Below, in pieces: positions 7,466 to 10,358 of a stretch of DNA of 64,000 nucleotides (positions within the stretch are counted from its first letter, which is position 1; every line of letters starts with the position of its first letter). The DNA lies in the NCBI RefSeq assembly GCF_001605725.1, contig NZ_CP011530.1:3286001-3350000 (forward strand). The letters run 5' to 3'. The notes beneath the pieces are model-generated. The model made no database searches, was not told the DNA's origin, and was given only the letters and a program-made list of their open reading frames with translations. The DNA comes from Mycobacteroides immunogenum (GTDB lineage Bacteria > Actinomycetota > Actinomycetes > Mycobacteriales > Mycobacteriaceae). The position numbers were made by a program, and so were the translations under genes.

Positions 7466-8218
7466 ATGGCACTGCAGCCGATCGCCCGTCAGTCGATCCC
7501 CGACGAGATATTCAGCCAGCTCGCGGCGCAGGTTCTCACCGGCGACCGCACCCCGGGCGACACGCTGCCCAGTGAACGAGCCCTCGCCGAAGCCCTCGGG
7601 GTGTCACGCACCGCGGTCCGCGAAGCACTGGGACGCCTGGAACGTTCGGGGCTGATTCACATCCGCCAGGGCGGATCGACGGTGATCCGCGATTACCGCA
7701 GCGACGCCGGTTTCGATGTACTGCCACTGCTCCTGGCGTACGGCGGTGATGTAGACCGCCGCACCCTGGCCAGCGTGATCGAGGCCCGGGCCATCATCGG
7801 CCCCCAGGTCGCACGCCTGGCCGCGCAACGGGCACATCAAACCCCCGGGGTAGCCGATCGCTTGCATGCGATGGCCGCCGAACTGGAATCGGAAAGCGAT
7901 CCCCTGCAACGGATGTGGCAAGCACTCGGATTCTGGGAGCTGGTCATCGATACCGCCGACTCAATCGCCTTTCGGTTGGTGTTCAACACCATGCGCGACT
8001 CATACGTGCGGGCCTTGGATGTCCTGGTGAATGTCATGGCCGCCGAGGTAGGCAATATCGGCCACTATCGTGCACTGGCCGACGCTGTCGCCTCCGCAGA
8101 TCCCGCCGCCGCGCACGACGCTGCGGCGGCGATGCTCGCCTTGGGCACCAAGGCTTTTGACCAACTCTTGCGCGAACTCCCAACTGACACCGCGGCGGAA
8201 TCGGAGAACCGGCAATGA
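7466..8218 (+). CDS. GntR/FadR-family transcriptional regulator
   Basis: A 250-residue regulator. The winged helix-turn-helix lies at about residues 10-75 (TLPSERALAEALGVSRTAVREALGRLERSGLI, then the wing HIRQGGSTVI). The all-helical FCD effector domain follows, with ligand- or metal-contact candidates in IEARAIIGPQVARLAA. The stop overlaps the ATG of the fatty acid hydroxylase gene (ATGA), so regulator and enzyme are co-transcribed, and a FadR-like palindrome sits just upstream. A lipid or organic acid effector is likely. Confidence 0.9.
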   Translation: MALQPIARQSIPDEIFSQLAAQVLTGDRTPGDTLPSERALAEALGVSRTAVREALGRLERSGLIHIRQGGSTVIRDYRSDAGFDVLPLLLAYGGDVDRRTLASVIEARAIIGPQVARLAAQRAHQTPGVADRLHAMAAELESESDPLQRMWQALGFWELVIDTADSIAFRLVFNTMRDSYVRALDVLVNVMAAEVGNIGHYRALADAVASADPAAAHDAAAAMLALGTKAFDQLLRELPTDTAAESENRQ

Positions 8219-8877
8219 CGCGTACCGCACGCAAGTCGATGACCCTGCGCGATGCCCTCGCAGAATTCGTCAAACACCCCACGCCATGGATGCTGATCGC
8301 ATGGTCCGTCGCGCTTCTGGCCAGCCGAATCTCCCTGGGCGGCTGGACAATCGCGGACGCCATCACACCCATCGCGCTGGTAGCCATCTCCCCGATCGCC
8401 GAATGGCTGATCCATGTCGGCATCCTGCACTGGCGCCCGCGTTCATGGGGACCGGTGCGGGTGGACTCCAGACTGGCCCGCGACCACCGGCTGCATCATC
8501 AGGATCCGCGCGACGTCCCGCTGGTGTTCATCCCCTGGCCCAGCCTGATCGTGGTGGTTGCCGGGGTCACCGCGATCGCACTATTGGCCTTCCCGCGCAC
8601 TGGGATTGGTCTAACCTTCGCTCTCACAATCGCGCTGTTTCTGGTGTTCTACGAGTGGACGCACTATCTCATCCACACCGATTACAAGCCGCGGCATGCC
8701 ATCTATCGCGCGGTCTGGCGTAACCACCGGTACCACCACTTCAAGAACGAGAACTACTGGTTCACCGTCACCAGCTCGGGAACCGCCGACCGGCTACTGG
8801 GAACCTATCCGGACCCGCAGCAGGTGAAATCCTCGCCGACTGTGCGAAATCTACACGCGCCCAGCATTACTGGTTAG
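8215..8877 (+). CDS. Sterol desaturase / fatty acid hydroxylase superfamily membrane protein
   Basis: A 220-residue integral membrane diiron protein. Histidine clusters HHRLHHQ (about residue 90), HYLIH (about 145) and NHRYHHFKNENYWFTVTS (about 170) match the eight-His diiron signature of fatty acid hydroxylases; four hydrophobic segments are present. It hydroxylates or desaturates a lipid at the membrane; the substrate is unknown. It overlaps the FadR-type regulator by four bases. The TAG at 8875-8877 overlaps the stop of the convergent small ORF. Confidence 0.87.
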   Translation: MTRTARKSMTLRDALAEFVKHPTPWMLIAWSVALLASRISLGGWTIADAITPIALVAISPIAEWLIHVGILHWRPRSWGPVRVDSRLARDHRLHHQDPRDVPLVFIPWPSLIVVVAGVTAIALLAFPRTGIGLTFALTIALFLVFYEWTHYLIHTDYKPRHAIYRAVWRNHRYHHFKNENYWFTVTSSGTADRLLGTYPDPQQVKSSPTVRNLHAPSITG

Positions 8878-9044
8878 GTCCCGGAACCGGGCCCGCAACT
8901 GGCTCCCGAATAGCCGTCCTGCTGATGATCCGGCCCGCCAGCATGGTTCCGCGGCCTACTGCCCGAATTGGTGGCCACAAAAAACCCCAGCCCAGCGATC
9001 AACAACACGATCACCGTCACACCGACGATGATCGCGGTCATCAT
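8874..9044 (-). CDS. 56-aa membrane peptide with a lone C-terminal cysteine; candidate substrate of the MNIO locus
   Basis: A short ORF starting ATG at 9044 and ending TAA at 8874-8876. Residues 3-24 form one strong transmembrane helix (IIVGVTVIVLLIAG core); the rest is Gly/Ser/His-rich and ends GYSGASCGPGSGT, with one cysteine at position 50. The start overlaps the TGA of the upstream gene (ATGA), so translation is coupled to the DUF692 operon. MNIO/DUF692 enzymes act on cysteines of short peptides encoded beside them, which makes this the likely substrate. That role is inference. The coding status is supported by the overlap and the coherent membrane/tail structure. Confidence 0.68.
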   Translation of the reverse strand: MMTAIIVGVTVIVLLIAGLGFFVATNSGSRPRNHAGGPDHQQDGYSGASCGPGSGT

Positions 9045-9469
9045 GCCTCAGCCTGCTCCGGCCGTAATGCGAAGTAACGCAGCTTCTTTCCAAATGCGAT
9101 CTGGAGTTCCCGGCGGCCACCACGGCGCACCAGGGCGATGCGGCGAAGTCCTTCGGAGACCTCGCGATCCATCACCCAATCACGCAGACGCGGCAGCTCG
9201 TAGCTGTACTCGCGAAACTCCTTGGCATCGCACAGCACACAGCATCGCATCGAATGCAGCCGCGCATACTGCTCGAATTCGTACTCCCAGTTGGGCATTT
9301 CCTCGAGCCACGGCACGGCCCTGGCCATGTCAAAGCGTCGTTTGGCGCGCAGTTGCGCACCGGCGGTCAGCGCCGTGTACTCGTCAAAACCACACGGGGC
9401 GTTGCCCGCCAGCAGATCCGACAGCACCGACAATTGGCGGCGCCGCAGTACCTCACGGTTGTCAAGCAT
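9041..9469 (-). CDS. Partner protein of the DUF692 enzyme (unrecognised family)
   Basis: A 142-residue soluble protein from the ATG at 9469, which begins MLDNREVLRRRQ and overlaps the end of the DUF692 gene by eight bases. It is helical and charged, with a Cys cluster CCVLC near residue 92. I recognise no named family. Its place between a DUF692 enzyme and a small Cys peptide is that of the partner or recognition protein (MbnC/TglI role) in known MNIO pathways. It overlaps the peptide gene by four bases at its end. Confidence 0.72.
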   Translation of the reverse strand: MLDNREVLRRRQLSVLSDLLAGNAPCGFDEYTALTAGAQLRAKRRFDMARAVPWLEEMPNWEYEFEQYARLHSMRCCVLCDAKEFREYSYELPRLRDWVMDREVSEGLRRIALVRRGGRRELQIAFGKKLRYFALRPEQAEA

Positions 9470-10358
9470 GGACAACACCGGCCTTGATCGCCTGACGAAC
9501 GACCGACAGATCGGCACTCACGCTGGCCTCGTCGATCGACCCGTCACGCTCGATCAGCACGCCCAGGCTGCGGCCCGAGGTGAGCACCACGAGTTCGGTG
9601 AGCAGGTCGGCCACCGGCTCGATGATGGTGTCGGCATGGGTATCCCAGTACAGATTGCCCTCGAAGCGGCCACCCGCGATATGCACGTACGCCACCCGCT
9701 CGATCGGGAAACGGCGCAGCAGCGCGACCGGATCGGTGCCCGAGGCCACCGCCGTCGCGTAGAGATTAGGAATATCGAGCACCAGCCAGCAGTCGGTGCG
9801 CCGCGACAACTCACGCAAGTAATCGGGCTCGCTGAGCTCGTTCTCGGGCCACTGCAAGGTGGTGGCCACATTCTCCAGCGCCAGCGGCACACCGAGGTCG
9901 TCTTGAACCCGCGACACGTTGTCCACCAGCACGTCGAGCGCCAATGTGGTGCGCGGCGGAGCGATCAAATGCCCCGCCTCGAGCACACCGCTGTACCGCC
10001 CGTTTTCAAACCCGGCCCGCACGAAGGCCACATGCTCGCTGACCATCGGTGCGTTCAGTTCCGATGCCAGGGCAGCAAGGTGCTTCACGCGCTTGGCGTC
10101 CGGCAGGTCAGCGCCGGCCAAACCCAACGACACCCCGTGCGGCACCACAACGGTGCCCGCCTCACGCAGGCCCGTCAGTTCCGCGGGCAGCTGTCCGGGA
10201 CGGAAGTTCTCGGCGACGATCTCGGTGAAAGCGAGGTTGAGCGAATCGTCGGTGACGGCGCCCTGGTTGAACATCGCAGCAAGCTCGGGGCGCCACGAGG
10301 CGCCGACCGCGGGCTCGTCGGCCAGCACGGTCTTAAGCGGGTGATTTGAAGAGGCCAC
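9462..10358 (-). CDS. DUF692 multinuclear non-heme iron-dependent oxidative enzyme (MNIO; MbnB/TglH-like)
   Basis: A 298-residue TIM-barrel protein with the family's metal-ligand segments in order: PHGVSLGLAG (about residue 73), SEHVAF (107), LENVAT (162), LDIPNLYATA (194), YVHIAGG (224), DTHAD (239) and LIERDG (268). Characterised relatives use two or three irons to oxidise peptide cysteines to oxazolone/thioamide, or to excise carbon. It heads a three-gene minus-strand operon with an eight-base overlap to its partner. The region upstream (10359-10420) is short, so the promoter must be there or within the DUF952 gene. Confidence 0.9.
   Translation of the reverse strand: MASSNHPLKTVLADEPAVGASWRPELAAMFNQGAVTDDSLNLAFTEIVAENFRPGQLPAELTGLREAGTVVVPHGVSLGLAGADLPDAKRVKHLAALASELNAPMVSEHVAFVRAGFENGRYSGVLEAGHLIAPPRTTLALDVLVDNVSRVQDDLGVPLALENVATTLQWPENELSEPDYLRELSRRTDCWLVLDIPNLYATAVASGTDPVALLRRFPIERVAYVHIAGGRFEGNLYWDTHADTIIEPVADLLTELVVLTSGRSLGVLIERDGSIDEASVSADLSVVRQAIKAGVVHA

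Follow-up and report, generated by a model that had tools for sequence, protein, structure and literature searches.

Enzymes of the MNIO (DUF692) family carry out unusual chemistry, mostly on peptide cysteines. The window, which is the whole 64,000-nucleotide stretch of Mycobacteroides immunogenum DNA analyzed here, encodes one such enzyme together with a partner protein and a small membrane peptide. The locus raises the question of whether this peptide is what the enzyme modifies, and if so, at which residue. The first-pass annotation had proposed the peptide as the substrate and its single cysteine as the target.

The three genes lie on the minus strand and overlap, the MNIO and partner genes by 8 nt and the partner and peptide genes by 4 nt. 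The open reading frames and the profile match agree with the initial description of an MNIO enzyme, a 142-residue partner, and a 56-residue peptide with one cysteine (Table 1). The genome is a single contig of 5.57 Mb, and the closest named match to the enzyme is from Mycobacteroides franklinii (94%). The stop codon of the peptide gene overlaps that of a convergent gene of the fatty-acid-hydroxylase family (8215-8877) at 8874-8877. At the other end of the operon, 62 bases separate the MNIO start from the end of an upstream DUF952 gene. In genomes G507 and G468, a different open frame is found upstream, which makes it unlikely that the DUF952 gene belongs to the system.

Table 1. Position and main features of the operon genes in the window
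Feature	Position	Strand	Description
MNIO (DUF692, PF05114) enzyme gene	9462..10358	-	GTG start, 298 aa; PF05114 match and alignment to solved MNIOs
Partner protein gene	9041..9469	-	ATG start, 142 aa; follows the MNIO gene, PME-type-2-like homologue
56-aa single-helix peptide gene	8874..9044	-	ATG start; helix spanning roughly residues 5-23, juxtamembrane core NSGSRPR, GYSGAS motif, and Cys50
Cys50 codon of the 56-aa peptide (its only cysteine)	8895..8897	-	TGC in the window

The enzyme matches PF05114 (MbnB_TglH_ChrH) with an E value of 2.4e-61 and a score of 207.7 bits, against a gathering cut-off of 25. When the enzyme is aligned to TglH and further MNIOs of solved structure, the putative metal-ligand positions fall on H109, E162, D195, N198, H226, D239, H241, E270, and probably H74. 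An identical residue stands opposite eight of the nine iron ligands of TglH given in PMC10880893. The ninth is one column off: H74 is displaced by one column from His71 of TglH, yet lies opposite a histidine of 3bww. The nine positions are invariant in seven aligned MNIOs of the clade described below, an alignment that leaves out L008. In the L008 enzyme, residue 239 is an asparagine. The conserved aspartate that it replaces belongs to the DTH motif and is the counterpart of an Fe3 ligand in TglH. The window enzyme falls below the NCBIfam equivalog cut-offs of BufB (154.4 of 310 bits), HvfB (118.2 of 360), ApyH (109.3 of 400), ChrH (51.9 of 600), and MbnB (39.1 of 325). It is the only PF05114 match in its genome.

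The partner of the window matches no Pfam or NCBIfam family. When a profile was built from the partners of clade members, homologues were found directly after the MNIO or fused to it in 91 of the 103 locus records. The profile E-values refer to this small set, in which a few loci are present twice. The 91 include 14 fusions with the partner domain at the C terminus of the MNIO, namely all ten loci from one genus of another family (L133-L142), L015, L016, L023, and L026. Because the two domains are fused in these loci, a physical partnership or complex of enzyme and partner can be argued for. The proposed pairing of the enzyme with the partner is borne out across Mycobacteriales.

In its position directly after the MNIO and its lack of a DUF2063 signature, the window partner resembles the PME-type 2 proteins, which PMC12452194 reports for at least 10% of the TIGR04222 clusters. 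The DUF2063 signature that characterizes PME-type 1 proteins was sought in 17 aligned relatives of the partner as well and appeared in one, at an E value of 0.057. PME-type 2 membership would also call for a fold related to NGO1945 or TglI; a search of the PDB for sequence relatives gave no match with a small profile and one chance-like match with a wide profile. The cysteine cluster noted in the first-pass annotation is present as CCVLC, and its three cysteines are invariant in nine aligned Mycobacteroides partners. None of the 15 other aligned homologues contains CCxxC, so the cluster looks like a trait of the genus. It could bind a metal.

The peptide itself has no Pfam or NCBIfam match above cut-off. 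Mycobacteroides provides 11 distinct loci for comparison: the window, L002-L008, L010 (the same as L048), L042, and L044. The further records L043 and L045-L047 duplicate some of these. In all 11, a peptide frame lies at the homologous place, overlaps the stop of the partner gene, and is open. Over the nine species with the short, 56-residue form, simple pooled pairwise Nei-Gojobori estimates, given without a significance test, yield dN/dS values of 0.07 for the enzyme, 0.08 for the partner, and 0.15 for the peptide. Within the peptide, the value is 0.22 for the helix part, 0.10 for the tail, and 0.01 for the NSGSRPR core. The presence in all 11 loci and the low dN/dS rule out a chance or mis-called short frame, and the peptide is established as a true operon member, as had been suggested. 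It is also the best substrate candidate. The GYSG motif occurs in 11 of 11 peptides, and the longer PDHQQ.GYSGAS motif in nine of nine short forms. A likeness to PF25184 (YxzE-like putative bacteriocin) is seen for the window peptide (18.5 bits) and for a peptide of L058 (3430-3684, 28.4 bits). Both scores are below the cut-off of 40, which is too little to file the peptide with the bacteriocins.

Basic residues flanking a transmembrane helix favor its cytoplasmic side, according to the positive-inside rule. The helix of the window peptide was located by hydropathy. In seven peptides counted, no lysine or arginine precedes the helix and two to nine are found in the 25 residues after it. The basic residues lie only C-terminal of the helix, which favors a cytoplasmic tail within reach of a cytoplasmic enzyme. 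The case is weaker for the window peptide, which has only two basic residues in that region. The initial view that a modified cysteine is displayed at the membrane is doubtful in light of this distribution.

Peptide length and cysteine content differ widely among the Mycobacteroides loci. The peptides of L007 (87 residues) and L006 (81 residues) contain five and four cysteines, respectively, within a Gly/Ser/Cys tail. Those of the window, L002, L004, L005, and L008 have 56 residues and a single cysteine, and those of L003, L010, L042, and L044 have 56 residues and none. The codon at the Cys50 position is TGC or TGT in five of the nine short forms. In the other four it is TAT, CAT, TAC, and TAC, encoding tyrosine in L003, L042, and L044 and histidine in L010/L048. 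Thus, most Mycobacteroides members of the system have little or no cysteine left in the peptide. Directly after the peptide stop, the nine loci compared have similar DNA, so the length differences arise inside the tail and not through a new stop.

This distribution bears directly on the lone cysteine as target. The first-pass annotation had named loss of the cysteine in orthologues as an outcome that would refute its proposal, and the cysteine is missing in four of 11 loci. The residues that follow the cysteine vary as well. A conserved cysteine motif, as in MNIO precursors, is lacking in the genus, since four of the 11 peptides are free of cysteine. In the DNA tree of enzyme and partner genes, L003 pairs with L010 and L042 with L044, each pair with a bootstrap value of 100, and the two pairs stand apart. 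The intervening branches are weak (27 and 54). The best tree contains two cysteine losses, but the AU test does not reject a tree that joins all four cysteine-less loci and needs a single loss (p 0.43). The claim of repeated loss was abandoned on this ground, and the tree suggests one or more losses.

The wider family places these peptides in context. In a quick tree of 92 MNIO rows, from which rows with partial matches and duplicates were left out, all 14 rows for enzymes associated with single-helix peptides fall into a single clade (SH-aLRT 100). This clade is nested in a group of 83 rows (SH-aLRT 99) that contains the MNIOs of TIGR04222-type loci. When the clade profile was searched across the family, 21 of 401 genomes gave matches at E <= 1e-100. 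Among 18 newly seen clade loci, 17 encode one or two single-helix peptides, each with an N-terminal helix, three to eight cysteines, and about 68-116 residues, a length range that is approximate because the starts were picked by script. Two peptides are encoded in nine of these 17 loci, and none was seen in the remaining locus, L167. L058, L059, and L060 also encode one or two Cys-tailed single-helix peptides with three to eight cysteines, which brings the count to 20 of the 21 loci of the clade that lie outside Mycobacteroides. Outside this genus, the peptides share composition and layout more than alignable sequence. The Cys-rich form is probably ancestral, since it is the one found in the other members of the clade; the direction of change is read on a Mycobacteroides tree without a settled root.

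The related MNIOs are mostly accompanied by larger membrane proteins. In an order-level sample, 147 of 397 genomes contain a PF05114 match, and 40 MNIO loci were hand-picked from these. A Cys-rich, Gly/Ser-tailed multi-helix protein is encoded just upstream of the MNIO in 35 of the 40 loci (33 by a composition rule, L120 and L122 on reading) and is lacking in L103, L104, L123, L124, and L127. A PME-type-2-like partner is present in 34 of the 35. In a genus-level sample outside Mycobacteroides, 35 of 297 genomes contain PF05114, and the upstream Cys-tailed protein is found in 23 of the 25 best-scoring loci. All eight Cys-tailed multi-helix proteins scanned match TIGR04222. Their type of tail ends in CGG in 32 of 33 order-level loci and 23 of 23 genus-level loci (L012-L035, L092-L131), which suggests a recognized C-terminus. 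Genome G468 carries both kinds of system, the single-helix-peptide locus L059 and the TIGR04222-type locus L099, which has two Cys-tailed proteins in a row. No TIGR04222 match was obtained for the window peptide, the first 54 residues of the L006 peptide, the L007 peptide, or two L058 peptides. In layout, the single-helix peptides look like stripped-down versions of the TIGR04222 membrane proteins.

We consider it fairly probable that the operon represents, in a compact form built on a membrane peptide, the TIGR04222-MNIO-partner systems known from Actinomycetota, and that the partner presents the peptide tail and the enzyme modifies it. In this mechanism, the partner would bind the membrane peptide and hand over its C-terminal tail for oxidative modification by the iron enzyme. 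The helix would tether the product to the membrane, with the tail probably in the cytoplasm. The tail common in the clade, and probably ancestral, has several cysteines among glycines and serines and probably carries modified thiols that serve in metal binding or redox reactions. Most Mycobacteroides peptides have no cysteine repeat and instead a short conserved tail, NSGSRPR...PDHQQ.GYSGAS, with one cysteine or with tyrosine or histidine in its place.

The constancy of this short tail is also what an enzyme acting on a non-cysteine residue, for example the tyrosine of GYSGAS, would leave behind. The cysteine would then be dispensable. Published MNIOs include some that act on other residues, with formation of ortho-tyrosine (PMC12257519) and hydroxylation of homocitrulline (PMC13174530). 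In the four cysteine-less species alone, the enzyme (dN/dS 0.077) and the partner (0.078) are still constrained. The Cys-rich tails of the 20 peptide-bearing clade loci outside Mycobacteroides speak against this explanation. In addition, none of the 18 newest loci has a Cys-tailed frame with GYSG, so a tyrosine target would require a change of specificity. A non-cysteine target is rather unlikely. A related reading confines the change to some species, which would have dropped every target cysteine and kept enzyme and partner. Since these species hold both proteins under strong selection, a switch of the enzyme to a non-cysteine residue would be implied, either the tyrosine of GYSGAS or the tyrosine or histidine at the place of Cys50. 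The product would be membrane-bound and possibly face the cytoplasm. We regard such a switch as a tentative proposal, somewhat less likely still.

The original reading, in which Cys50 is the modified residue, requires that the species with tyrosine or histidine have lost the function. Five of nine short-form loci have cysteine at this place, the two long forms have it in the matching region, and cysteine motifs occur in most proposed MNIO precursors (PMC12452194). Function could have been lost once in one lineage, as the single-loss tree allows. A long loss of function would, however, not predict the low dN/dS of enzyme and partner in the cysteine-less species. The existence of these species weakens the lone-cysteine model, which appears doubtful. 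The membrane peptide is conserved in the operon and remains the best candidate for the substrate, and the lone cysteine as its modified residue is left unsupported.

Conservation of enzyme and partner beside a cysteine-free peptide could also mean that the true substrate is encoded elsewhere in the genome and that the peptide serves the enzyme complex as an anchor in the membrane or as an adaptor. A TIGR04222 substrate in trans is rejected, as the window genome gave no TIGR04222 match. With the Cys-rich L007 peptide as a query against four genomes, the operon peptide was retrieved at E <= 1.4e-7 and nothing else below 0.017. A DNA pattern for Cys-rich tails was rarer than its reversed control in both genomes searched, with 11 places (3 + 8) against 64 (32 + 32) in G000 and six (2 + 4) against 64 (29 + 35) in G132. 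Six of the 17 places and one weak match were read, and no convincing tail protein emerged. A frame in L185 that ends in CGGGCGGRR does not resemble a gene. An unlinked Cys-tail protein is rejected on the L007 query and the DNA pattern, searches that a differently built substrate would escape. A substrate in trans is, overall, improbable. Equally improbable is decay, in which the peptide would be the remnant of a Cys-tailed substrate and the system would be disappearing. The short tails with few or no cysteines in most Mycobacteroides loci and the asparagine at the D239 metal-ligand position of L008 might suggest it, but the selection values are low for all three genes and the peptide frame is open in every locus.

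The branch described here reduces the proposed membrane substrates to one helix and a tail, small enough to be expressed and weighed whole. It also offers a natural series of peptides with many, one, or no cysteines beside nearly identical enzymes, which would directly show whether cysteine is the target in this large actinobacterial group.

Several known systems invite comparison. The closest is the TIGR04222-MNIO-PME-type 2 system, whose membrane proteins have been proposed as MNIO substrates (Antoine et al. 2025, PMC12452194). The two share the same large MNIO group, a homologous partner after the MNIO, and an anchor followed by a Gly/Ser/Cys tail. The TIGR04222 proteins have several helices and mostly about 300 residues, whereas the peptides have one helix and about 56-116 residues, do not match TIGR04222, and in the short Mycobacteroides forms contain one or no cysteine. 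The peptide genes lie downstream of the MNIO, in contrast to the upstream TIGR04222-type genes, and the predicted side of the tail differs, being periplasmic for TIGR04222 proteins in PMC12452194.

The TglHI pair of the 3-thiaglutamate pathway also combines an MNIO with a small partner, and its ligand residues are conserved in a distant alignment, but TglA is a scaffold peptide to which a C-terminal cysteine is added (PMC10880893). Bufferin and oxazolin systems (BufB, HvfB, and DUF2063 partners) belong to the MNIO family as well. A bufferin system is rejected by the family scores of all three components: the enzyme is below the BufB and HvfB cut-offs, the partner lacks DUF2063, and the peptide has no bufferin family match. 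DAG-RiPPs (PMC12636315) resemble the present system in having a membrane-anchored MNIO product; the anchor there is a lipidated N-terminal cysteine and not a transmembrane helix.

The first-pass annotation held that a membrane-anchored MNIO substrate would differ from those described, which was too strong. TIGR04222 membrane proteins have been put forward as substrates, a lipid anchor is possible for some bufferins (PMC12452194), and an MNIO product that is lipidated, a lipoprotein hybrid, has been demonstrated (PMC12636315). Neither single-helix MNIO peptides of mycobacteria nor the cysteine-less members of the branch were found in the literature searched, although the adjamnio-V proteins of PMC12452194, very small and encoded directly after the MNIO, may overlap with the L058 and L059 peptides, a likeness drawn from their description. 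In the favored reading, the operon falls within a compact branch of the published candidate system, one that is built on membrane peptides.
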